This document shows positions 6,393-34,561 of a stretch of DNA of 64,000 nucleotides, in pieces; the first letter of the stretch is position 1; the number at the start of each line of letters is the position of its first letter. The stretch spans positions 1 to 64,000 of the forward strand of contig JAGAVW010000046.1 in NCBI GenBank assembly GCA_017941735.1, written 5' to 3'. The position numbers and the translations under genes are program-made. The stretch is from Solobacterium sp. (GTDB lineage Bacteria > Bacillota_I > Bacilli_A > Erysipelotrichales > Erysipelotrichaceae). The notes under the pieces were generated by a model. The model was not told the origin of the DNA, ran no database searches, and was given only the letters and a program-made list of their open reading frames with translations.

Positions 6393-6760
6393 CCTTTATT
6401 TCCGTAAGTTTTGGGTAGCGTAAGGATTCTGGGTTTGGTATTGCTGGACGAGTTGCGTTTTGTTTCGATTTATGAACATACAAAAGAAGTGATTAATCTA
6501 GAAAACTATAAAAAATGAGATTACAAAGATTGTAGATATACTGCATAATAAGAATATACGCGTGATTATGCAGACCATTCTTCAATTTTTTCGATTATGG
6601 ATATGAGGTAGAAGTAGTTGTGTGTGATAAGGATGCGGGTGGTGTTTTCTTTAGAGATGGACTGCATTTAGGAGATTATTTACACCCTAATAAAGAGGGT
6701 GGATTGCGTATGGCAAATGGCTATGATTTAGAGCAATTAACAGGAGAAGAATTATGTTAA
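6393..6760 (+). pseudogene. decayed SGNH/GDSL-type hydrolase gene
   Basis: No intact frame exists here, but three overlapping frames give protein-like text when joined. These are about 6402-6516 (ending ...EHTKEVINLENYK), 6511-6592 (EITKIVDILHNKNIRVIMQT) and 6593-6760 (DYGYEVEVVVCDKDAGG, then RDGLHLGDYLHPNKEGG). Breaks fall at an A-run near 6510-6516 and a T-run near 6586-6592. DYLHPNKEG is a good match for the catalytic Asp-x-x-His block V of SGNH hydrolases; block I (GDS) is not recognisable. The last codons overlap the GH3 start (ATG 6754, stop 6758-6760), so the two genes were once coupled. No other feature is seen in this 416-nt gap. Confidence 0.6.
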
Positions 6761-9204
6761 GTACAAAAGCAAAACACACGAATGTGATTACCGAGCGCGA
6801 AAAAGCAAACGCTAATGTTGCGTATCGCATCGCTACCGAAGGAATTGTTTTACTTAAAAACGATGGGGTATTACCAATAGAACCAAAGCGGATTGCGCTT
6901 TTTGGGGCTGGAGCTGGATACACCATTGCGGGAGGAAGTGGAAGTGGAGAGGTGACTTCTCGCTACACGATTAATGTACTTGATGGATTAAGGAATACTG
7001 GCTTTACCATTACCACAATGGATTGGATTAACCGCTATGATGTGTTATTTCAAACGGGAAAAGAAGCGTTTTTAGCAAGTGTTAGAAAATCGATATCCAC
7101 CTTTAACGCAAAAGCACTCGGAAACTTATTGGCAGCGGAGTTTCTTTATCCAACTGGGGATAAGATTTCAGAAGAAGAAATCAAACAGAGTGATACCGAT
7201 ACTTGTCTTTATGTGGTGGCACGTCAATCAGGCGAAGGAAGAGACCGCAAGAATGAAGAAGGAAACTTTAAACTCGATGAAGTGGAAATTGAAAACATTA
7301 AATTATGTGCAAAGCTTTATCCATCCTTTGTATTAATCATCAATAGTGGCTGTATTATTGACTTATCACCATTAGATGGAGTTGAAGGAATTAATGCCAT
7401 TGTTTATATGGGACAACTTGGCATGGAGGGAGGAAATGCCCTTGCGAGCATTTTAACTGGTAAAGCAAATCCAAGTGGAAAGTTAACGATCACGTGGGGA
7501 AACACTTACCTGGATTATCCTTATGGCAATGATTTTGGTATTTATGCAAAAGATTTGTTGGAAGCGAATTATAAAGAAGGCTTATTTGTAGGCTATCGGT
7601 ATTTTGATTCGTTTGAAAAAGAAGTGCGTTATCCTTTTGGATTTGGTTTAAGCTATACAACTTTCGATTATGAGGCAACCGGTATAGAACAAAAAGAAGA
7701 AGTTATCCAAATCCATACAAAAGTGAAAAACACAGGTGCTTGTTCGGGTAAAGAAGTAGTGCAATTCTATGTAAACGAACCAAGCACAACGCAAATAAAG
7801 CCTTACCAAAAACTGATTGGTTTCTTAAAAACCAAAGAATTATCCCCTAATGAACAGGAAGAATTAACGTTATCGATTCCACTTTCCTATTTCTCAAGTT
7901 ATGAAGAAAAAACAGGAGAAACTTATTTAGAAGAAGGCAATTATGTTTTAAAAATGGGGAACCATTCACGCAACACAAAACCAATCGCATGTATTTATAT
8001 TTCAAATCGAATCGTCTTAAGTAAGCATAAAAATGTATGTGTACCTGCAAGAAAGATTGCGGAGTTAATTCCTTCTGCAGACAAACATGAGAATGTAAAA
8101 GGTTTACCAACCATCACCATTGATTATCCAAATGAGCCAACCGTATTTACTTATGAAGTGCCAGAAGAAGCATTCTTACCAAGTGTAAATACACATTTAC
8201 AAAATCTAAAAAATGAAGAAAAGATTCAACTTGTGGCAGGAACGGGTTTATTTGGCAATAAGACAGGCTTCTCTGTGCCAGGGGCAGTTGGCCATACAAC
8301 CACAAACTTTATTAAACAAGGCATTCCTAATATTGAACTTTGTGATGGGCCGGCAGGGGTTCGTCTACAACGACGTTCTGCGCTTACTAAGAGGGGAAAG
8401 ATTAAACCGATTGATGCGTCGATTTCCATCTATGAATATTTACCTAAATTCATTTCTAGATTTGTATTTGGAAATCCAAATAAAGATAAAGTGCTCTATC
8501 AATTTGTGACGGCGTTCCCAATTGCCTCGGTTGTTGCGCAAACTTGGAATGAAGAATTGGCCAATGAAATGGGAGAAGCAGTAAGTGAAGAAATGTATGA
8601 ATATGGCGCAACCGTGTGGCTTGCGCCTGCCATCAACATTGTGCGTAATCCTTTGTGTGGAAGAAACTTTGAGTACTATAGTGAAGATCCAATTCTTTCT
8701 GGAAAGATAGGGGCTGCGATTACCCGTGGGACCCAACGCAATCATCCAACCTTTGTAACGATTAAACACTTCGCATGTAATAACCAAGAAACAGAGCGGA
8801 CAAGTAATTCTTCGAATCTAGATGAGCGTGTGTTACGCGAAATCTATCTAAAAGCATTTGAGATTGTTGTAAAAGAAGGGAAAGCAAAAGGCTTTATGTC
8901 TGCATACAACAAAATCAATGGCACCTATGCAGCAAATAGTAGAGAACTATGTACGGACGTATTACGTGGAGAATGGAATTATGAAGGAATCGTAATGACC
9001 GATTGGTTCTCTACCGCAAAAGGAAAAGCACTTGATGTAGGATGTATTAATGCAGGTGTAGATTTGATTATGCCAGGAGGAAAGGGTGTCTTAAAACAAC
9101 TGAAAGAAGGTCTTAAGAATAACGCTCTGAATCAAACGGATTTAGATCGAAGCACTTCACGCGTGCTAAACATCTTGTTGCAATCGGATGTTAAAGTAGA
9201 TTAG
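6754..9204 (+). CDS. glycoside hydrolase family 3 with permuted domain order
   Basis: 816 residues, no signal peptide, so likely cytoplasmic. Domains run in reverse of the usual GH3 order. The alpha/beta-sandwich domain comes first (residues ~20-270; ATEGIVLLKNDGVLPI, AGGSGSGEV). A fibronectin-III-like domain follows (~300-385; FGFGLSYTTFDY). The TIM barrel is last (~480-770; CDGPAGVR, GRNFEYYSEDP). Lys671-His672 (KHFAC) and nucleophile Asp750 (VMTDWFS) are present. This order is known from rumen beta-glucosidases such as those of Ruminococcus albus and Butyrivibrio. It would release beta-linked glucose or similar sugars from oligosaccharides; the exact substrate is unknown. AGGAG lies 7 nt before ATG. 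Confidence 0.9.
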   Translation: MLSTKAKHTNVITEREKANANVAYRIATEGIVLLKNDGVLPIEPKRIALFGAGAGYTIAGGSGSGEVTSRYTINVLDGLRNTGFTITTMDWINRYDVLFQTGKEAFLASVRKSISTFNAKALGNLLAAEFLYPTGDKISEEEIKQSDTDTCLYVVARQSGEGRDRKNEEGNFKLDEVEIENIKLCAKLYPSFVLIINSGCIIDLSPLDGVEGINAIVYMGQLGMEGGNALASILTGKANPSGKLTITWGNTYLDYPYGNDFGIYAKDLLEANYKEGLFVGYRYFDSFEKEVRYPFGFGLSYTTFDYEATGIEQKEEVIQIHTKVKNTGACSGKEVVQFYVNEPSTTQIKPYQKLIGFLKTKELSPNEQEELTLSIPLSYFSSYEEKTGETYLEEGNYVLKMGNHSRNTKPIACIYISNRIVLSKHKNVCVPARKIAELIPSADKHENVKGLPTITIDYPNEPTVFTYEVPEEAFLPSVNTHLQNLKNEEKIQLVAGTGLFGNKTGFSVPGAVGHTTTNFIKQGIPNIELCDGPAGVRLQRRSALTKRGKIKPIDASISIYEYLPKFISRFVFGNPNKDKVLYQFVTAFPIASVVAQTWNEELANEMGEAVSEEMYEYGATVWLAPAINIVRNPLCGRNFEYYSEDPILSGKIGAAITRGTQRNHPTFVTIKHFACNNQETERTSNSSNLDERVLREIYLKAFEIVVKEGKAKGFMSAYNKINGTYAANSRELCTDVLRGEWNYEGIVMTDWFSTAKGKALDVGCINAGVDLIMPGGKGVLKQLKEGLKNNALNQTDLDRSTSRVLNILLQSDVKVD

Positions 9205-9262: not shown

Positions 9263-10804
9263 ATGGAAAAGAAAAGACAAATCAATTCCAAATATTTTTT
9301 GATTGCGCTTGGCTTTGCGTTCTTTGTGTTTTTCTGGTACATCAGTCGCTCAGCTCCCGTCGCAGGCGATGATTGGGGTTATGCGGTTGGTGGACGTGAT
9401 GCGAATCCATTGTTTAAAGCTTGGAGCAATTATTTCACATGGTCGGGACGCTTCTTAAGTGAACTTTGGGGTTACGCTATGACGAACCATAAGCGCTTAT
9501 GGAACTATGTGAATGCGGGAATCTTTACAGGAATTGTTTATTTATTATTAAAAATTTCAAACCCAAAAGAAAAGATTATTTCCTTTTTCGTTGCGGTGTT
9601 CTTAATTTTAAGCGTTTCAGATGGTTTACGAATGCAGACCTATACATGGATGATGGGTACAACGTATGTAATTCCATTGCTGTTGTTCTTACTGTACTTT
9701 TTATTGATTAAGCAGTGGTTCATGGAAGGAAAAGACTCCAAATTACGTTTTTTCATCATGGCACTATTAAATGCATTCATCCCTCTTTATATGGAAAATG
9801 CAGCTGCGATGTTATTTGGTGGGAATGTGTTATTACTTCTTTATGTATATTTTAAAGATAAACCTAAATGCAAGCGAATACTGATTCTATTAGGCATCAG
9901 TTTAGTAGGAGTTGCGATTATTCGCTTATCACCAGGGGCCATTTATCGTCTTTCCCGCGACCATGCGGAATTTCAAACGATGAATTTATTTCAAAAGATT
10001 TCGTATAATTGGTTACCTTTGATTCGCTTTACTTTTATTGATCATGTATGGCTAATGCGCATCATGAGTCTATTGCTAATTTCTTTGGCTATCTATAAAT
10101 ACATGAAGAAAGAAGTTTCCTTACCGCTTTGTATTCTTATTTGTGCCATGAATGCATTTGCGTGCATACAAAGTTTTGCGTGGCTTCTTTATGATTTTGT
10201 CCCAATGAATCTTCTTTATATCGTTGCGGATTATCATGTGCCGCATAGTCTAACTTTAAATACGATTGGTTATGTATTATTTACATTAAGCTTATTTATT
10301 GGCGCATGGAAACTTGTGAAGAATAAAGAAAAATCCTGGCTTTTAACGTGGCTTCTTTTTTTAGCGGGTGGGGCAAATGTGGTAATGTTGCTGTCTCCAA
10401 TCTTTGATATCCGCAGTAGTATCTACACAGTATTTCTATTTATCCTCTTTGTTTTATTTATGTTGGATGAATTTAATTTTAATCAAGGGAGTCGTTATTT
10501 ATTAATAGGACTTGCGGTAGTTGGTGTAGCACTTGCGAGTTATTCTTATTATCGCTTATATCAAATGGTTCATAATGTTGATACGAGAAGACAAGCACAG
10601 ATTGAGTATTATCGCGTGCGGCCAGATGATAAAGAAGCTTATATTCTTGGCTATCCTGCTTTATCTGTTCATTCTGCAGATGTATTAGAAGGGGATACAT
10701 TCCATGAAGAAGTATTTAAAGAATATTATTATTTGGCGAAGGATGTGAATTTACACTTCTATTATTTAGACAATTACACCAAAGAGGAGATCTTTAAACA
10801 ATGA
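9263..10804 (+). CDS. DUF6056-type polytopic membrane protein
   Basis: 513 residues. After TM1 comes AGDDWGYAVGG, then WSGRFLSELWGYAM, the same layout as the paralogue at 1061 but with a much shorter outer tail (~70 residues). About 11 membrane helices. The likely role is a membrane glycosyltransferase-like protein acting on surface glycan; this is inferred from topology and from the glycan genes that follow. It heads a tightly packed run: its stop overlaps the next ATG by 4 nt. Confidence 0.75.
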   Translation: MEKKRQINSKYFLIALGFAFFVFFWYISRSAPVAGDDWGYAVGGRDANPLFKAWSNYFTWSGRFLSELWGYAMTNHKRLWNYVNAGIFTGIVYLLLKISNPKEKIISFFVAVFLILSVSDGLRMQTYTWMMGTTYVIPLLLFLLYFLLIKQWFMEGKDSKLRFFIMALLNAFIPLYMENAAAMLFGGNVLLLLYVYFKDKPKCKRILILLGISLVGVAIIRLSPGAIYRLSRDHAEFQTMNLFQKISYNWLPLIRFTFIDHVWLMRIMSLLLISLAIYKYMKKEVSLPLCILICAMNAFACIQSFAWLLYDFVPMNLLYIVADYHVPHSLTLNTIGYVLFTLSLFIGAWKLVKNKEKSWLLTWLLFLAGGANVVMLLSPIFDIRSSIYTVFLFILFVLFMLDEFNFNQGSRYLLIGLAVVGVALASYSYYRLYQMVHNVDTRRQAQIEYYRVRPDDKEAYILGYPALSVHSADVLEGDTFHEEVFKEYYYLAKDVNLHFYYLDNYTKEEIFKQ

Positions 10805-13730: not shown

Positions 13731-15194
13731 ATGAGAACGGTATTAAAAGTAATTGGAAACATTCTTCAGATTGTAATTAAAGGTGCCTTGCTTATTGCTC
13801 TATTTTTGGGAGCGTGGTATTACCTGACACCGTTTTTTAGAGTGGAAAGAAGTACGGAAGGGGATTTCTATCGGAATCTACCAGAACAAACCGTCGATGT
13901 GTTAGCCTTAGGCTCTAGTCACATGCAATATGCTTTTAATCCCGCAATTCTATATACCGAAACGGGCTATTACAGTTATGTCTTAGGCTCTTCTTGCCAA
14001 CCACTTTCGATGAGTGCATCCATGTTAGAAGAAGCATTAAAAACACAAAGCCCGGAAGTGGTCGTTGTAGATGTATTTACACTTCTCCCACAGAGTGATG
14101 TATGTTATGCCGATGGCATGTATTATAAAGCGATTGATGAGATGAGTGGATGTACACGTCTAGAAGCAGCAGATTATGTTCCAAATAAAGAAGTGGGACT
14201 AACTTATAAATTTGATTTATTGATGAATCATGATCAATGGAAAAATATCGATCTTAAAGATATCCCAACGCTAATTGAAAAAATGAAACCAGTTAAAGGT
14301 TATAACACGGATTTAGGCTATGTAAGAGAAGAGCCTACTGAGCCACGTTATGCCCCATTAATCACCTATCAAAGAACACAAAAATTAGAGCTTTCGGATG
14401 ATGAGAAGGACCAAATTGATCGCTTGATTGCTTTGTGTGATGGAAACAAGATTCACCTCATGTTTATCAAAACGCCATATATTATCGACCAAGAGAATAC
14501 CAATAAACTCCATGCGGTATGGGATTATTTAAAAACCAAAAATATTGAATACATCGATTACATCGAAAAAGCAGAAGAATTAGAGTGGTTTATTGATATG
14601 GATGGTGATACATGGCATAACAATTCCTGGGGTGCAGAAATAATCACCGGTGATTTAGCCAAACGCATTAAAGAAAAAGGTTATGTCAAAAACCATAAAG
14701 AGAATACAGTTTATGAAGACTTATTAAAGGCAACCCAACGCATCGCTGCTAATTCGCTCATGTCTTCGAAAAATGTGAATATTTATCGCTTAATGGAAGA
14801 AGGAACAAAGTATCCTTGTACAATTCTATTGAAATATAAAGGGATGAATCGTACTTCGATTCAAGAATATGAAAACAATGCGTTACAAAAATTAGGCTTT
14901 ACACATGATTTTATTGAAGACAAACATGTGGACTATTATGCGATTGTAAGAAATGGAAAACTCATCCAAGAAAGCAATGAGCCTTTTGAAGCAAACATCG
15001 AGAATTTACACATTAAGTTAGATGAAGAGGGCATCCAATTAAATGGACATGCGTATTGTGAACCCGGTGAAATGGAAATCTATTTTTTGGCGGATGATTT
15101 ACTATGGGTGAACGCGGTTCCTATTGATTATGCATCTCGTTGGTTCTGGAAAAATGGTTGCGATGGGTTTGATTGTGATTTGAGCAAAGAGTAG
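13731..15194 (+). CDS. membrane-anchored SGNH-fold acyltransferase partner (AlgJ/DltD-like)
   Basis: 487 residues: one N-terminal membrane helix (8-28), then an extracellular SGNH domain. Block I is ALGSSHMQYAFNP with the nucleophile Ser, and the Asp/His pair lies in MDGDTWHNNSWG near residue 292. It would accept acyl groups from the MBOAT protein 7 nt upstream and place them on a glycan. A C-terminal part of ~160 residues after residue 325 has no motif I recognise. A strong start is GGGGAACT before ATG. Confidence 0.8.
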   Translation: MRTVLKVIGNILQIVIKGALLIALFLGAWYYLTPFFRVERSTEGDFYRNLPEQTVDVLALGSSHMQYAFNPAILYTETGYYSYVLGSSCQPLSMSASMLEEALKTQSPEVVVVDVFTLLPQSDVCYADGMYYKAIDEMSGCTRLEAADYVPNKEVGLTYKFDLLMNHDQWKNIDLKDIPTLIEKMKPVKGYNTDLGYVREEPTEPRYAPLITYQRTQKLELSDDEKDQIDRLIALCDGNKIHLMFIKTPYIIDQENTNKLHAVWDYLKTKNIEYIDYIEKAEELEWFIDMDGDTWHNNSWGAEIITGDLAKRIKEKGYVKNHKENTVYEDLLKATQRIAANSLMSSKNVNIYRLMEEGTKYPCTILLKYKGMNRTSIQEYENNALQKLGFTHDFIEDKHVDYYAIVRNGKLIQESNEPFEANIENLHIKLDEEGIQLNGHAYCEPGEMEIYFLADDLLWVNAVPIDYASRWFWKNGCDGFDCDLSKE

Positions 15195-20056: not shown

Positions 20057-20075
20057 ATTGTCCGGAGGTAAATCC

Positions 20076-21002
20076 ATGGAATTATTGTCAGTTGTAGTAC
20101 CTTGCTATAACGAAATGGAAACAGTAGATATTTTTTATGATGCTTTATGCAAGGTTTTAAAGACCATGGATAAGGACTACGAGATTATCTTTGTGAATGA
20201 TGGCTCGAAAGATCAAACCTTAGAAAAACTGAAAGCCATTTATGATAAAGCAAATGGGAAAGTGAAAATCATCGACTTTTCGCGTAACTTCGGTAAAGAA
20301 GGTGCTTTATTAGCTGGTTTACGTTATGCCAAAGGGGACTATGTCACCGTCATGGATGCGGATATGCAAGATCCACCAGAATACCTTCCTAAGATGTTTG
20401 AAACCATGGAAAAAAATGGGGATGATATTGTAGGTTCACGTCGTGTAACGCGGAAGGGGGAACCTCCTATTCGTTCTTGGTTTGCGCGTCGCTTTTATCG
20501 CTTAATCAATCGCTTTACAGAAGTTGAGATTGTGGATGGGGCACGTGATTTCCGTTTAATGAAGCGTCAAGTTGTAGATGCCATCTTACAATTGAATGAA
20601 TATGGTCGTTTTTCAAAAGGCTTATTTGCGTGGGTTGGCTTTAAAACAGAATATTTAGAATATGAAAACATTGAACGTGTCGCAGGAGAAACCAAATGGT
20701 CTTTTTGGAAATTGTTCCGTTATGCACTCGATGGGATTGTTGAGTATACCAATGTACCACTAGCACTCGCATCCTTTGTTGGAGGTTTTTTAACCTTTGT
20801 GATGTTTATCGAGCTACTAGTGCTTCTAGTTTTATCCTTAAATGGAAAAGTGATTACAAATACAACTCTAGTATTAAGTGTTGTATTATTCCTAGGTGGA
20901 ATCATTTTGTTAGCGATAGGTATTGTAGGCGAATACTTAGGGAAAACCTATAACGAAGTGAAGAAGCGTCCAAATTATATTGTGAAAAAGTATTATGATT
21001 AG
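20076..21002 (+). CDS. polyprenyl-phosphate glycosyltransferase (GtrB/ArnC/DPM1-like)
   Basis: 308 residues. GT2 catalytic domain: VVVPCYNEMETVD, VNDGSKDQT, SRNFGKEGALLAGLRYA, VMDADMQDPPE, and GARDFRLM. Two C-terminal membrane helices follow (~230-250 and 262-284), and the end is basic. This set is diagnostic for enzymes that attach a sugar to undecaprenyl phosphate, so that the sugar can be used outside by GT-C enzymes, such as the DUF6056 and YfhO proteins nearby. ATG 20076 is preferred over the upstream TTG because CCGGAGG precedes it. Confidence 0.92.
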   Translation: MELLSVVVPCYNEMETVDIFYDALCKVLKTMDKDYEIIFVNDGSKDQTLEKLKAIYDKANGKVKIIDFSRNFGKEGALLAGLRYAKGDYVTVMDADMQDPPEYLPKMFETMEKNGDDIVGSRRVTRKGEPPIRSWFARRFYRLINRFTEVEIVDGARDFRLMKRQVVDAILQLNEYGRFSKGLFAWVGFKTEYLEYENIERVAGETKWSFWKLFRYALDGIVEYTNVPLALASFVGGFLTFVMFIELLVLLVLSLNGKVITNTTLVLSVVLFLGGIILLAIGIVGEYLGKTYNEVKKRPNYIVKKYYD

Positions 21003-21011
21003 GAGACATAA

Positions 21012-21836
21012 ATGTCAAAAGAAAGAACAAACAAAGCAGTAAAACCAAATCGTAATTCGAACACTCACCCAAGATCATCCACGCCACATCAAGTGGAAAG
21101 TGGTATGAATCGGGTGCTTTTGTTTGCGTTACTTGGTTTATCGATTATTACGGTGCTTGCTTTTCTGATTAATATGGCACGCATTGCCTTACAGAAGAAT
21201 ACGACGAGCACCCCAAGTGAAGAGACAGCAGCAGTTGAAACGATGTCTAGTGATACTGGAGTATCCATGCGAAATGATATGTATTCTGTAGGAAACAATC
21301 CAACCGATTTACAACAAGAATACTTCCAAAAGTTAACAGATGCGATTAAATCACAAGATAAAGCAGCAATTGCGGAAGCTGTAGTATATAACTTTGTATC
21401 GGATTACTTTACTTGGACGAATAAAGACGGTAACTATGAAGTGGGTGGACTACAGTATATCTATACGCCAGATATTGCTGGCTTTGAACAATGGTCACGC
21501 TATAACTTCTATAAAGATTTAGATTTATATATTTCTCAAAAAGGAAGAGAGAAACTCATTGAAGTGCAATCAATCACCACTTCAAAACCAGTGGAAAAAG
21601 CACCAGACTTTGCGGTTACGGTTTGGGACGATCCACAAACAAAACGGGAAATCAAATATGAAAGTTACGAAGTAAATGTGACTTGGGAATACACCAATAG
21701 CTCCGATGCGAATAGTTTTCCAACAGGCGCACGTTTCTTTGTGATTGATAATGATGGGCGCTTAGAGATTGCGGAATTCTATGATGTAGAAAGCATCAAA
21801 GAATGGGAAGCAAGTCAAAGTGCGACACAGGGATAA
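21012..21836 (+). CDS. membrane-anchored extracellular protein, unknown function
   Basis: 274 residues: a basic, Asn/Pro-rich cytoplasmic start (~35 residues), one membrane helix (about 36-56), a Ser/Thr-rich linker, then an outer domain of ~170 residues starting near QQEYFQKLTDAIKS. The helix-then-strand pattern in that domain would fit an NTF2/Mce-associated-like fold, but no family is recognised. It lies 9 nt after the GtrB-like gene and directly before the LCP gene, so a role in wall-glycan attachment is possible. Confidence 0.7.
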   Translation: MSKERTNKAVKPNRNSNTHPRSSTPHQVESGMNRVLLFALLGLSIITVLAFLINMARIALQKNTTSTPSEETAAVETMSSDTGVSMRNDMYSVGNNPTDLQQEYFQKLTDAIKSQDKAAIAEAVVYNFVSDYFTWTNKDGNYEVGGLQYIYTPDIAGFEQWSRYNFYKDLDLYISQKGREKLIEVQSITTSKPVEKAPDFAVTVWDDPQTKREIKYESYEVNVTWEYTNSSDANSFPTGARFFVIDNDGRLEIAEFYDVESIKEWEASQSATQG

Positions 21837-21849
21837 GGAGGAATTGCAA

Positions 21850-24519
21850 ATGAGTGAGAAAGACAACAAAACAATTCCAGAGATGCCAATTAAGCAGCAA
21901 TATCGGCATGCTAAACCTGAAGGAAATAAGACAATTCAATCAATCAAACCGAAGGAAGATTCGGTTTCGATTCCTGTATTAGGGCAACATAAAAGTGAGA
22001 CACCAATCATGCAAGAAGAAGTCTCTTTTCAAGATGCCTTTAAAGAATTAGAAGCAATTCAAAAAGAACACCCAGTTGCGCCAAAACCACAAGAAGCGCA
22101 ACCCGTAAACATTGCTTCTAAAGAAGTAAAACCACAACCTACGGTGGCGAAACAAACGCAAACTTCACAAGCACAAGGCAATGTACAAAAGACAAAAGCA
22201 CAACCGAAAGTGGCGCAACCACATCCAAAACAACATTCAAGTCATAAAAAACCATCATCAGATAGTTTTGGGAAGAATACATGGTGGATTAATATTTTGC
22301 TTGTAGCATTAGCTCTCATCGTTAATTTCTTAATTCTATTTGTATTTTTCCGTACCACACAATTTGCGAATCTAAGCAAGCGTGGCTTTATCTTATTAAA
22401 TCTATTTGCGATGCTATTATTACTCGCAATCAATTTAGTAATCTTCTTTGCGATTCGCAATAATAAAAAGGTATTGTACTCTGTTGCCTGTGGCTTACTT
22501 GCGATTGCTTTACTATTCGGTGGAATTGGCAGCTATGTAGCAGGGCGCGTTACGACAGAAGTAGAAAAGATCACAAGTACAGTTGTTCAAGAGTCTGTCT
22601 CTACAAGTTTTGTTGTTTATAATAGTGGCACTTCGAGTATTAAAGATATTATCGAGTTAGAGGGGAAACGCGTTGGGTATGCAAGTGGAACGCATACCGC
22701 AACACTAGGACAAGAACAAATCAAAAATAAAGGTTTAAATGTTTCAGCAGAAGAATATCAAGATTATAGTGCAGTTTTATTAGCGCTCTTTAGTGGCGAA
22801 ATTGATTGTGCCATTTTACCAACCAACTACTTAACGATGTTCCAAAATGAAGCACGTATGAAAGAACATTTAGAGAAAACTTCTTCCATTCTTGATTTCG
22901 AAGAAACTGTCACCGTAGAAAGTGCAGCTGGAGCAGATAAAGATATTACAAAAGAACCATTTACTGTCTTATTAATTGGTAATGCGGATGGGCTGAGTGA
23001 CACCATGATTCTTTGTTCGGTCAATCCAATCAGTATGAAAGTTACGATGTCTTCTCTAGCAAGAGACTCCTATGTACCAATTACTTGTTATGGTGGGGGC
23101 CAATCCAAATTGAATGCCTCCCATGCGGTAAGTAAAGATTGTACGGTTTCTACAATTGAACAACTTGTAGGCGTAGATATTGACTACTACATCGATACTA
23201 ACTTCCAAGGCGTTGTTGATGTGGTCGATGCTTTAGGTGGAATTGTCGTTAATAGTCCAATTTCCTTTGTAGGACAAAGTTCTTCCAAAGAACGTGGTCA
23301 CTATACGGTTTATGTACCAGCTGGAGATAATGTCGTATTGAATGGAGAACAGGCACTTGCTTTTGCAAGAGAACGTTATAAATTTGCGGATGGGGACTTC
23401 GCAAGACAACGTCACCAACAACAAGTCATTGAAGCAATTATGCGTAAGATTATGCGTACACGTGATGTAAATACCTTTGTCAATGTCATGAAGGCAGCAG
23501 GGGATAATATTCAAACGAATCTCAGTGTACAACAAATGACAAGTTTTGTTAGTTACGCAATGCAAAAATCGAATCGTTATTATGATAAAGAACACATTGA
23601 ACGAATTTTTGATATTCAAACTTCACGTGTAACAGGATACAATTCTGGTTTGTGGGATGCTGGTTTAGAGATGGCCATTTATATTTACCGTCTATGGCAA
23701 GGCTCTCTTACAGCTACCAAAACAGCAATTGAACGTAATATCAATTACAGCAGTACACCAACTGCTGCAACTGATCGTATTCAATGGTCAGCAAACTGGG
23801 AATTTACTCCACCAGTCATTTCCTATGATTTCTATCCAGAATATATGATTCCATCTGAAGTACCACCAGAAGTGGAAGAAAAAGAAGCACAAGAAGCTGG
23901 ATGTGATGCAACTACACAAATTGTTGATGGAAACGGTAACTGTGCTTGTAACACAGCTGCTGGTTATACAGATGATGGAAATGGTAATTGTGTATGTAAA
24001 GATGGGTTTACAGGAGATGCAACTCAAGGATGTACACCAATCCCAGAAGAATCAGCAACGCCTGAAGCTACTCCAACACCATCTCCATCCGCTACACCTG
24101 ATGTAAATACAGAAGCAGGATGTAACGCGGCTAGAGGAGAAGGCAGTTGGTATAACAATGTATGTTATAACAATAAAGAAGAAGCAGATGCACAAAGACA
24201 GAAAGATGCGGATGCACAAAAGGCTGCTGAAGAAGAAGCGAAGAAAAAAGCAGAGGAAGAGGCAGCACGCAAAGCTGCAGAGGAAGAAGCGGCTCGCAAA
24301 GCTGCTGAAGAAGAAGCGGCACGTAAGGATGCTGAAGAGGAGGCTGCACGTAAAGCTGCAGAAGCAAAAGCAGCATGTGAAGGACAAGGTGGAAGTTGGG
24401 ATGGAGCAAATTGTATTATGCCAACATCAGAACCAACTCCAACTGAAGCACCTCCACAGGATAATACAAATCAAAATACAGCACCTACAACTGAAGCGGA
24501 ACCAACACCTGAAGGTTAA
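21850..24519 (+). CDS. LytR-CpsA-Psr (LCP) family protein with extra domains
   Basis: 889 residues from ATG 21850 (AAGGAGG upstream). Order: Pro/Gln/Lys-rich cytoplasmic region (1-140); three membrane helices (~144-164, 174-195, 202-222); a half solute-binding-like domain (~252-340, LEGKRVGYASGTHT); LCP domain (~367-635; SSLARDSYV, DTNFQGVVDVVDALGG, LAFARERYKFADGDFARQR); a Cys-rich stretch with two CxC pairs (~680-730); Pro/Thr linker; a Glu/Ala/Arg/Lys helix of nine-residue repeats; Pro/Thr tail. LCP proteins move polyprenyl-linked glycans onto peptidoglycan outside the cell. The core Arg and Asp residues are present. The flanking domains are unusual for the family. Confidence 0.9.
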   Translation: MSEKDNKTIPEMPIKQQYRHAKPEGNKTIQSIKPKEDSVSIPVLGQHKSETPIMQEEVSFQDAFKELEAIQKEHPVAPKPQEAQPVNIASKEVKPQPTVAKQTQTSQAQGNVQKTKAQPKVAQPHPKQHSSHKKPSSDSFGKNTWWINILLVALALIVNFLILFVFFRTTQFANLSKRGFILLNLFAMLLLLAINLVIFFAIRNNKKVLYSVACGLLAIALLFGGIGSYVAGRVTTEVEKITSTVVQESVSTSFVVYNSGTSSIKDIIELEGKRVGYASGTHTATLGQEQIKNKGLNVSAEEYQDYSAVLLALFSGEIDCAILPTNYLTMFQNEARMKEHLEKTSSILDFEETVTVESAAGADKDITKEPFTVLLIGNADGLSDTMILCSVNPISMKVTMSSLARDSYVPITCYGGGQSKLNASHAVSKDCTVSTIEQLVGVDIDYYIDTNFQGVVDVVDALGGIVVNSPISFVGQSSSKERGHYTVYVPAGDNVVLNGEQALAFARERYKFADGDFARQRHQQQVIEAIMRKIMRTRDVNTFVNVMKAAGDNIQTNLSVQQMTSFVSYAMQKSNRYYDKEHIERIFDIQTSRVTGYNSGLWDAGLEMAIYIYRLWQGSLTATKTAIERNINYSSTPTAATDRIQWSANWEFTPPVISYDFYPEYMIPSEVPPEVEEKEAQEAGCDATTQIVDGNGNCACNTAAGYTDDGNGNCVCKDGFTGDATQGCTPIPEESATPEATPTPSPSATPDVNTEAGCNAARGEGSWYNNVCYNNKEEADAQRQKDADAQKAAEEEAKKKAEEEAARKAAEEEAARKAAEEEAARKDAEEEAARKAAEAKAACEGQGGSWDGANCIMPTSEPTPTEAPPQDNTNQNTAPTTEAEPTPEG
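24253..24360 (+). repeat. four tandem 27-bp repeats coding EEEAARKAA
   Basis: Four in-frame copies of a 27-nt unit, differing mainly at third codon positions, one copy having KDA in place of KAA. The period of nine and charge pattern suggest a stiff single alpha-helix rather than a heptad coiled coil. The helix is bracketed by two short motifs of the form C...GSW..N.C (near 24121-24167 and 24374-24414). Confidence 0.85.
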
Positions 24520-24594: not shown

Positions 24595-24624
24595 AAAATT
24601 ATGCTATCTATAGGAGGTGTGATT

Positions 24625-24891
24625 ATGAAAATATATCCTTCAGCTGCGATACGGCAAAACTATAATACTGTTTCAGAAGAATGTAAAAAAACAAAAGAGC
24701 CAATATATTTAACAAAGAATGGAGAAGGCGATTTGGTTGTGATGGATATTGAAAGTTTCAATCGAAGAGAGAAGATGCTCTCTTTACGTGAAGAATTATT
24801 GGCAATCGAAGAGGATAGACTACAGGGTAGAGTCGGAATAGAAATAGATGAGTTAGATGCAAAGCTAGATGCATTACTTGAGAGTTTATAA
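24625..24891 (+). CDS. Phd/YefM-type antitoxin
   Basis: 88 residues. The N-terminal part (YPSAAIRQNYNTVSEECKK, then EPIYLTKNGEGDLVVMDIE) matches the Phd/YefM DNA-binding fold, and the charged C-terminal helix would wrap the toxin. It would repress its own promoter and neutralise the toxin encoded 2 nt after its stop. ATG 24625 is chosen because TAGGAGGTG lies just before it; an ATG at 24601 lacks such a site. Confidence 0.88.
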   Translation: MKIYPSAAIRQNYNTVSEECKKTKEPIYLTKNGEGDLVVMDIESFNRREKMLSLREELLAIEEDRLQGRVGIEIDELDAKLDALLESL

Positions 24892-24893
24892 AC

Positions 24894-25196
24894 ATGAATT
24901 ATAAAGTGATTGTATCTGATCGAGCTGCAGAAATGTTAAGTCGACACATTTCATTTATCTCAAAAGTGTCTAAAAAGGCTGCAAGGAAAACAAAGAACGA
25001 GATAGTTGAGGCTATTAAGAAGCTAAAACGGGATGCTCTTGTATATCCATTTTTTGAACAAGAATTCATTCCTAAGAACAAATATCATAAATGTGTCATT
25101 AACAAAAGATATCTACTTTTATATCAAGTCAAGGACAATGTGGTTTTTGTTGAGTACATTGTTGACACTAGAGAAGACTATTACTGGTTGCTCTAA
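24894..25196 (+). CDS. RelE/ParE-family toxin
   Basis: 100 residues: VIVSDRAAEMLSRHISFI, a helical pair rich in Lys, and a C-terminal sheet with RYLLLYQVKDNVVFVEYIVDTRED, the usual RelE/ParE end. RelE members cut mRNA on the ribosome while ParE members poison gyrase; sequence alone does not decide. It follows its antitoxin by 2 nt and ends in a terminator, so the pair is a compact unit between the LCP and rml genes. Confidence 0.87.
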   Translation: MNYKVIVSDRAAEMLSRHISFISKVSKKAARKTKNEIVEAIKKLKRDALVYPFFEQEFIPKNKYHKCVINKRYLLLYQVKDNVVFVEYIVDTREDYYWLL

Positions 25197-33031: not shown

Positions 33032-34561
33032 ACGAGAACGAGATATTCTTTTTACAACTTTATTGTCAGCACGATTGCGGCAGTATTATTACCACTCATC
33101 GGATTTATTAAATTCCGACTTTTTGTCGATTTCTATGGGAGTGATATTAATGGGTTACAGCTAACCATTGCCCAAGTCATTACGTTCTTAAATATTTGTG
33201 AACTTGCGTATTCTTTGGCATTCCGCCAATTATTATTTAAACCACTTGCGGAAGGAGATCGAAACGAAGTCCTCAATATCTACCATGGGGCACGTCGCAT
33301 CTTTAATATTACCGGGTGGGTAGTCCTAGCCTTAGCCGCAATCCTTGCGTTTGGCTTCCCATTCTTTGCGGATTCTCCACTTGATTACTACCAAACGGTA
33401 GGAACCTTCTTCTTACTTGCCTTACCACATGGCTTATCTTATTTCTTGATGGGACCAAACTTTGTGATTATGGCAGACCAAAAAGAATATAAGATTAATA
33501 TTTGGATTCAAAGTATCTCCATTTTACGTATGGTCTTTATGGTGCTTGCGATTATCTTAAAGTTACCATTTATCGCCATTTTAATCATTGAAGCAGCGAA
33601 TATTCTATGTGCTAACTGGATGGCACGGTGGGTCGCACTTAAGGCTTATCCGTGGTTAAAGGAACCAGCGAAGAATCCAAATGATAGTTCCTTTAAGAAA
33701 AAGGCAAGTTATGCGATGATTCAACGCTTATCCGAACTTGCGACAACCCAAACCGATAACATTGTGATATCTGGCTTTATGGGATACGCGATGTCTTCTG
33801 TTTATGGTACGTACAGCTATTTAACCGATAATATTGGAAAGATTACACAAACGATGGTGCAATCCCCAATGAATAGTTTTGGGAATCTATTCAATGATAA
33901 ACACCGGGATCGTTATGCGGTATTCTTAGAATTCTTTAATTTCTCGACCTATATTTCAACAATTGTCGCATGTGCCATTTATATTGTCTTGCCACAATTC
34001 GTACCCATTTGGATGCGTAATCCACTTTACGAAGTGTCGATTCCTGTTTGTGTTTGTTTAGGTTTAAATATCTTCTATATGACCTTACGTCAACCTGTTA
34101 TTATCGCAAGAGATACAAATGGGTTATATGTAGATGCGAAAAATAATGCCTATTTATTAGCGATTGTAAAAGTCGTGTTATCCATTCTTCTTGTGAAACC
34201 ATTAGGTTTATTTGGGGTTGCTTTAGCGACGACCTTATCTTATTGGACCATTGATTTATTCTATAATCCAAACTTAGTTTATACACGCGTCTTCCATCGT
34301 AAGACAACCGAATACTATTCCTTAGTATTCATTCGTTTAGCGATTGCCTTAGGAATTGCGTTTGTAGGCAATGTGATTTGGCAGATGTATTTTGTGGAAC
34401 GATGCGTAAATGTCATGAGTTTGATTCTTAATATTATTCTCATTGGATGCTTTATTTTGGTTTTGACTACATGCATTTATTGGTTCTGTTTTGGATCGTT
34501 TAGAAATTTATTCTATCGTTTCATGAGTATTATAAAGAAACGTAGCGCAAAGGAGCGTTAG
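33032..34561 (+). CDS. second Wzx-type flippase, apparently with an ACG start
   Basis: The first ATG/GTG/TTG-type codon in frame is TTG 33215, but the 61 codons before it are clearly family sequence (TRYSFYNFIVSTIAAVLLPL, then LFVDFYGSDINGLQL), forming the first membrane helix and its loop. The in-frame codon ACG at 33032 lies 7 nt after AAGGAG, just where a start should be, giving about 509 residues. About 12-14 membrane helices; MOP flippase fold. Either a true ACG start or an ATG mutated by one base. Two bases before it is the stop of the GT2 gene. Confidence 0.75.
   Translation, partial: TRTRYSFYNFIVSTIAAVLLPLIGFIKFRLFVDFYGSDINGLQLTIAQVITFLNICELAYSLAFRQLLFKPLAEGDRNEVLNIYHGARRIFNITGWVVLALAAILAFGFPFFADSPLDYYQTVGTFFLLALPHGLSYFLMGPNFVIMADQKEYKINIWIQSISILRMVFMVLAIILKLPFIAILIIEAANILCANWMARWVALKAYPWLKEPAKNPNDSSFKKKASYAMIQRLSELATTQTDNIVISGFMGYAMSSVYGTYSYLTDNIGKITQTMVQSPMNSFGNLFNDKHRDRYAVFLEFFNFSTYISTIVACAIYIVLPQFVPIWMRNPLYEVSIPVCVCLGLNIFYMTLRQPVIIARDTNGLYVDAKNNAYLLAIVKVVLSILLVKPLGLFGVALATTLSYWTIDLFYNPNLVYTRVFHRKTTEYYSLVFIRLAIALGIAFVGNVIWQMYFVERCVNVMSLILNIILIGCFILVLTTCIYWFCFGSFRNLFYRFMSIIKKRSAKER

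Follow-up and report, generated by a model that had tools for sequence, protein, structure and literature searches.

The 64,000-nucleotide stretch of Solobacterium sp. DNA analyzed here (the window) contains, on its forward strand, a gene (21850..24519) that begins with an ATG at 21850 downstream of AAGGAGG, ends with its stop codon at 24519, and encodes a CpsA-type LCP protein of 889 amino acids. Its neighborhood includes a Wzx-like flippase (28226), an O-antigen-ligase/Wzy-like protein (17312), several glycosyltransferases, an RmlA-like nucleotidyltransferase (25297), and epimerases, and much of this glycan locus is syntenic in relatives. A GtrB/PgfS-like membrane glycosyltransferase of 314 amino acids, with a GT2 domain (Pfam, E 1.2e-39) and a C-terminal TM region, is encoded on the same strand at 20058..21002, which confirms the glycan-locus setting with a GtrB-like enzyme given in the original prediction. 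Its closest NCBIfam model is that of the protein-glycosylation enzyme PgfS (310 bits, under the 500-bit cut-off of that model). Other genes of the window are a Phd/YefM antitoxin and ParE-like toxin pair (24601-25196) that separates the LCP gene from the RmlA-like one, a GH3 enzyme (6754-9204) with swapped domain order, its GH3 C-terminal domain (residues 31 to 301) preceding the N-terminal domain (residues 585 to 806), and two DUF6056 membrane proteins (1034-2839 and 9263-10804) that flank the locus. Two genes of the glycan region, 13731-15194 (487 amino acids) and 33215-34561 (448 amino acids), have no Pfam match at 0.001; since the former comes after an MBOAT gene, a DltD-like role is conceivable for it.

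Between the GtrB-like and LCP genes, and also on the forward strand, 21012..21836 encodes a protein of 274 amino acids with one TM helix and an extracytoplasmic domain, for which no Pfam or NCBIfam family was found above cut-off. Its AlphaFold2 model (pLDDT 83) presents a TM helix at residues 30 to 63 followed by an alpha+beta domain, and the Foldseek matches of this model, although weak (E 0.025 or worse), include several NTF2-like proteins (Tim44, PARC6, DotI, and RsgI9), so that an NTF2-like fold is assigned tentatively. Orthologs of the LCP protein were collected by searching genome contigs, with one genome per species, using an alignment as the query (a single-protein query gave no matches), and they come from Solobacterium sp., other Erysipelotrichaceae MAGs, many of them from the ruminant gut, and Erysipelothrix. 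A homolog of the 274-amino-acid protein lies directly 5' of the LCP gene in all of the approximately 54 loci with upstream DNA among the 59 ortholog loci, including those of Erysipelothrix, and in Erysipelothrix tonsillarum (L198) the two genes occur as tandem pairs. The GtrB-like gene adjoins this pair in most of the closer-relative loci. The LCP protein probably has an obligate partner in this single-TM protein.

The LCP protein, whose features are all given here on the forward strand, opens with a cytoplasmic low-complexity N terminus (residues 1 to 142; 21850..22275), missing or short in most orthologs, and three hydrophobic (TM) segments (residues 143 to 231; 22276..22542), both read directly from the sequence. 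These are followed by a single-lobe, solute-binding-like accessory domain (residues about 244 to 362; 22579..22935), delimited by an NMT1 match and Foldseek, and by the LCP catalytic region (residues 366 to 665; 22945..23844). The Pfam LCP domain PF03816 matches residues 383 to 534 (E 3.5e-38; 131.6 bits versus a cut-off of 24.6), residues R405, D406, R507, R509, D516, R519, and Q523 are invariant among 49 aligned sequences, and phmmer matched BrpA, Cps2A, and further solved LCP structures. The NCBIfam model NF051849 (Cps2A) starts its alignment at residue 142 and covers residues 142 to 629 (model positions 7 to 473 of 477), but with 161.5 bits against a cut-off of 650, and the protein is therefore called CpsA-type and not CpsA.

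The layout of the original prediction, in which an LCP core is flanked by half of a solute-binding-like domain, an EGF-like run, and linkers, is borne out, with the half domain appearing as the NMT1 match at residues 244 to 332 (Pfam, E 2.2e-5, exceeding the gathering score). A substrate-binding protein would have two lobes and a ligand cleft, and only about one lobe (residues 244 to 345) is present. AlphaFold2 was run on residues 226 to 889 together with 48 orthologs (mean pLDDT 83.8, with the tail part on a shallow alignment), and the top Foldseek match of the model is Cps2A (3tel, E 2.2e-30), aligned over 401 columns, against a target of 372 residues, that span both the accessory and LCP domains. 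Other LCP proteins rank next, and after them, at ∼1e-5, come matches to one lobe of amino-acid binding proteins or of MltF; the accessory domain resembles the lobes of the GlnPQ SBD and of MltF at about this level. Given that Cps2A ranks first and the lobes of binding proteins only later, the solute-binding-like half is the known CpsA accessory domain, which is optional and non-conserved in LCP proteins and corresponds to CATH 3tflA01 (PMC7831098). The N-terminal half is thus not new: its N-terminal TM segments, accessory domain, and LCP domain of Cps2A fold match the CpsA/Cps2A LCP ligases in domain order and fold. The premise that ordinary LCP proteins have a short N terminus and one domain was incomplete, as CpsA and Cps2A themselves have the accessory domain (Foldseek, 3tel/2xxp, ∼400 columns).

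Within the LCP domain, Cys413 and Cys431 (codons within 23086..23142) form a putative disulfide. Both are kept in 54 of 58 orthologs, including Erysipelothrix, while two orthologs have lost both and two retain one. A 2021 review states that an LCP disulfide was not found outside actinobacterial LCPs (PMC7831098). A simple disulfide-pathway explanation was dropped, as VKOR is absent from 70 genomes of the genus and Thioredoxin_4 is absent from the window genome.

For the C-terminal half, neither Pfam nor NCBIfam nor the PDB yielded a described domain, and the refuting condition set in the original prediction, that the flanking parts be described LCP accessory domains, holds for the N-terminal half only. 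This tail contains ten cysteines, six of which (685, 698, 700, 714, 716, and 728) lie in an EGF-like segment (residues 685 to 728; 23902..24033) that includes the two predicted CxC pairs (Cys698/700 and Cys714/716) and is modelled by AlphaFold2 with short strands; its likeness to EGF is in the cysteine pattern only, with no EGF family found in Pfam at E<=1. The segment continues into a Pro/Thr linker (residues 729 to 757; 24034..24120) and a first two-Cys Trp loop, CNAARGEGSWYNNVC (residues 758 to 772, Cys758/772; 24121..24165). A charged single alpha-helix follows (residues 776 to 842; 24175..24375) and then a second two-Cys Trp loop, CEGQGGSWDGANC (residues 843 to 855, Cys843/855; 24376..24414), both loops being defined by the AlphaFold2 model, the cysteine pattern, and the shuffling test described below. 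The protein ends in a Pro/Thr tail (residues 856 to 889; 24415..24516), which, like the linker, was read from the sequence; its terminus (...EPTPEG) has no LPXTG-type motif.

The structure prediction shows residues 776 to 845 as one continuous helix (pLDDT about 93), flanked on both sides by a small hairpin, and the helix contains exactly four EEEAARK[A/D]A copies, the number originally predicted. It is long and isolated, and its i/i+4 pairs comprise 11 acid-to-base and 13 base-to-acid pairs, as in single alpha-helices. The mini-motif C...GSW..N.C, said to bracket the helix, was inexact: two loops do flank the helix, but their common part is GSW-x4-C (GSWYNNVC and GSWDGANC). No fold relative of the Trp loops was found, and searches with the tail repeat gave no match in viral contigs or the PDB and no NCBIfam family. 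Loop 1 has a counterpart in the LCP protein of one relative (G022) and in the SGNH hydrolase of another (G072).

Comparison of orthologs shows that the C-terminal half is a hypervariable modular tail, present in relatives among the ruminant-gut Erysipelotrichaceae. In the clade of the window, the cores are 55 to 74% identical, whereas the tails differ sharply between species and consist of C-x11-C Trp-loop repeats, EGF-like runs, PASTA domains followed by loops, or Ser/Gly repeats. The main unit of the tail, a loop with two cysteines, typically has the spacing C-x11-C and often contains a Trp. When each of the collected LCP and SGNH tails was shuffled, the count of C-x11-C fell from 100 to 8.1 ± 2.8 and that of W-x4-C loops from 47 to 1.4 ± 1.2; these counts, coming from related tails, are not independent events. 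The number of cysteines is even in 27 of 37 tails, or in 33 of 37 with PASTA cysteines masked (again with related, non-independent tails), a hint of disulfides. In other genera, the ortholog tails contain PASTA-like domains or as many as about 40 cysteines, some with MucBP; among the orthologs scanned, the PASTA assignment passes the Pfam cut-off only in L010 (E 2.3e-5), is sub-threshold in another (L188), and was made by eye in the others, and the window tail has no PF03793 match. Six LCP orthologs of other Erysipelotrichaceae (L166, L169, L170, L178, L179, and L192) have very Cys-rich tails, some with MucBP. The proposed rigid spacer agrees with the AlphaFold2 model but is not general, as most orthologs lack the helix and have Pro/Thr linkers, PASTA-like domains, or repeated Cys loops instead. 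A more distant clade has plain Pro-rich tails, from which it follows that the loops are dispensable.

Pro/Thr runs are present in nearly all tails, and together with the PgfS-like identity of the adjacent glycosyltransferase they raise the question of whether the tail is an acceptor for the glycans of the locus, which would involve the PgfS-like enzyme and the DUF6056 membrane proteins, with the LCP and other tailed proteins being substrates of protein glycosylation. Glycosylation of a protein by an LCP enzyme has a precedent in Actinomyces oris, where LcpA glycosylates GspA (PMC6381275). This reading is nevertheless quite unlikely, as the PgfS score falls under the cut-off and the Trp loops, even cysteine counts, and helix are left unexplained.

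A search for other loop-bearing proteins, as originally proposed, retrieved Trp loops on the LCP proteins, SGNH hydrolases, and class A PBPs of relatives. In several sister genomes, an SGNH hydrolase on another contig carries the species-specific tail type of the LCP protein: CANNGGTWDG-type arrays are found on both tails in G007 and G012, CWDGSTA..CPAKP in G004, and CQDPNALNNGDMANPCVYP in G089. Among the 16 genomes with both tails, the similarity of own LCP/SGNH tail pairs is 1155 versus 426 ± 119 for permuted pairs (0 of 100,000 permutations), and without the three strongest genomes the permutation values are 3/100,000 (raw scores) and 31/100,000 (log scores). Over 215 nt in G012 and 113 nt in G089, the DNA identity between the two tails reaches 93%, and convergence alone was rejected for these two genomes on this ground. 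Mis-assembly of the MAGs was also rejected as the source, as the genes lie within long contigs, the sharing recurs in several genomes, and the similarity ends inside the coding tail. Further carriers of the loops are class A PBPs of the window genus and other genera, a 1640-amino-acid repeat protein (G007), and a surface protein with fibronectin-type repeats.

The SGNH hydrolase and the transpeptidases of the window genome were expected to have the LCP tail and do not: the LCP protein was the only one found to carry the module, the SGNH tail has no cysteines, and none of the three transpeptidase proteins found has Trp-loop repeats, so that tail sharing does not apply in this genome. The missing module on this SGNH hydrolase also bears on the idea that helix and loops form an oligomerization or docking arm uniting LCP, SGNH hydrolase, PBP, and NTF2-like partner in one complex. 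Such an arm would suit LCP and SGNH tails that are identical in kind within a species and an upstream partner that is constant, but the NTF2-like partner, too, has no such tail, and the idea is very improbable. The sharp differences in tail composition among species with 55 to 74% identical cores, and the swapping of modules between genes, would also be expected if the tail were a surface decoration under diversifying selection by phages, host immunity, or neighbors, with loops and linkers that need only exposure and variability and do not target the enzyme. This is unlikely, given that otherwise different sequences retain the geometry of the two-Cys loops and the spacing of Trp and that the loops are common to PBP and SGNH enzymes and not to adhesins alone.

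The protein thus joins a C-terminal module that is undescribed and recombining to an ordinary core of CpsA type. It is most likely a ligase for capsule or wall polysaccharide, and its tail would hold the enzyme in the wall. From the family and the conserved residues, the membrane-anchored LCP protein is predicted to serve a Wzx/Wzy-type surface-polysaccharide locus by transferring the finished polymer from the undecaprenyl pyrophosphate carrier onto peptidoglycan. Small, disulfide-closed Trp loops, joined by the rigid helix and Pro/Thr linkers, would reach into the wall, with the helix spanning about 10 nm (70 residues × 0.15 nm) as a spacer, and would keep the enzyme near its acceptor in place of the PASTA-like domains of related orthologs. 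Wall binding by the loops is suggested by their position, their aromatic residues, the replacement of PASTA, and their use by several wall enzymes, and a role of the Cys-rich parts as a binding head, as originally proposed, is plausible. In several sister species, other envelope enzymes share the tail sequence through recombination, which suggests a putative portable, species-specific tag for wall attachment or targeting. The whole reading, namely, a CpsA-type ligase of a Wzx/Wzy-type locus with a modular, wall-reaching tail that recombines in sister species and with an obligate upstream partner, is given a probability of about 0.5. It is possible, although somewhat doubtful, that the Trp loops are an undescribed Erysipelotrichaceae wall-binding module, homogenized by recombination between unlinked wall enzymes, whose species-matched tags bring ligase, hydrolase, and PBP to one wall polymer.

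On how LCP ligases locate their wall acceptor, an LCP review offers only a mention of C-terminal domains whose structure is unknown (PMC7831098). A literature search retrieved nothing on LCP proteins with Erysipelotrichaceae, nor on cysteine-rich wall-binding repeats. Interest centers on the sharing of tails, on the NTF2-like partner, and on the Cys pair of the LCP domain: a tail swapped within a species among wall enzymes that are not linked would offer a natural test of wall-enzyme co-targeting, and the constant partner and the Cys pair are concrete, testable additions to LCP biology beyond the usual model bacteria.

Among known systems, Streptococcus pneumoniae Cps2A (2xxp/3tel; Wzg) shares with the window protein the hydrophobic N-terminal segments, accessory domain, LCP domain, and capsule-type locus, with 26% identity over the 401 Foldseek columns; the window protein differs in its ∼225-residue modular C-terminal tail, Cys413/Cys431, the NTF2-like partner upstream, and the model score (161.5 versus 650 bits). 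A. oris LcpA (5v8c) likewise has an LCP domain with a proposed disulfide, required for stability, but there the bond (C179-C365) joins helix H2 to the C terminus (PMC6381275), whereas the window pair is 18 residues apart. PASTA domains of wall enzymes occupy the same C-terminal position, and in some orthologs (L010) Cys loops follow them; the window tail, however, lacks a PASTA match, and its Cys/Trp loops are unrelated in sequence. Choline-binding and GW wall-binding repeats are short, roughly 20-residue aromatic repeats arrayed at protein ends, and resemble the tail loops by analogy only, as the latter have two cysteines and no sequence relation was found. Single alpha-helix (SAH) linkers and the TolA-like helix share the E/K/R/A periodicity (weak TolA matches), but the window helix is distinct in being bracketed by Cys loops, extracellular, and carried by an LCP ligase.
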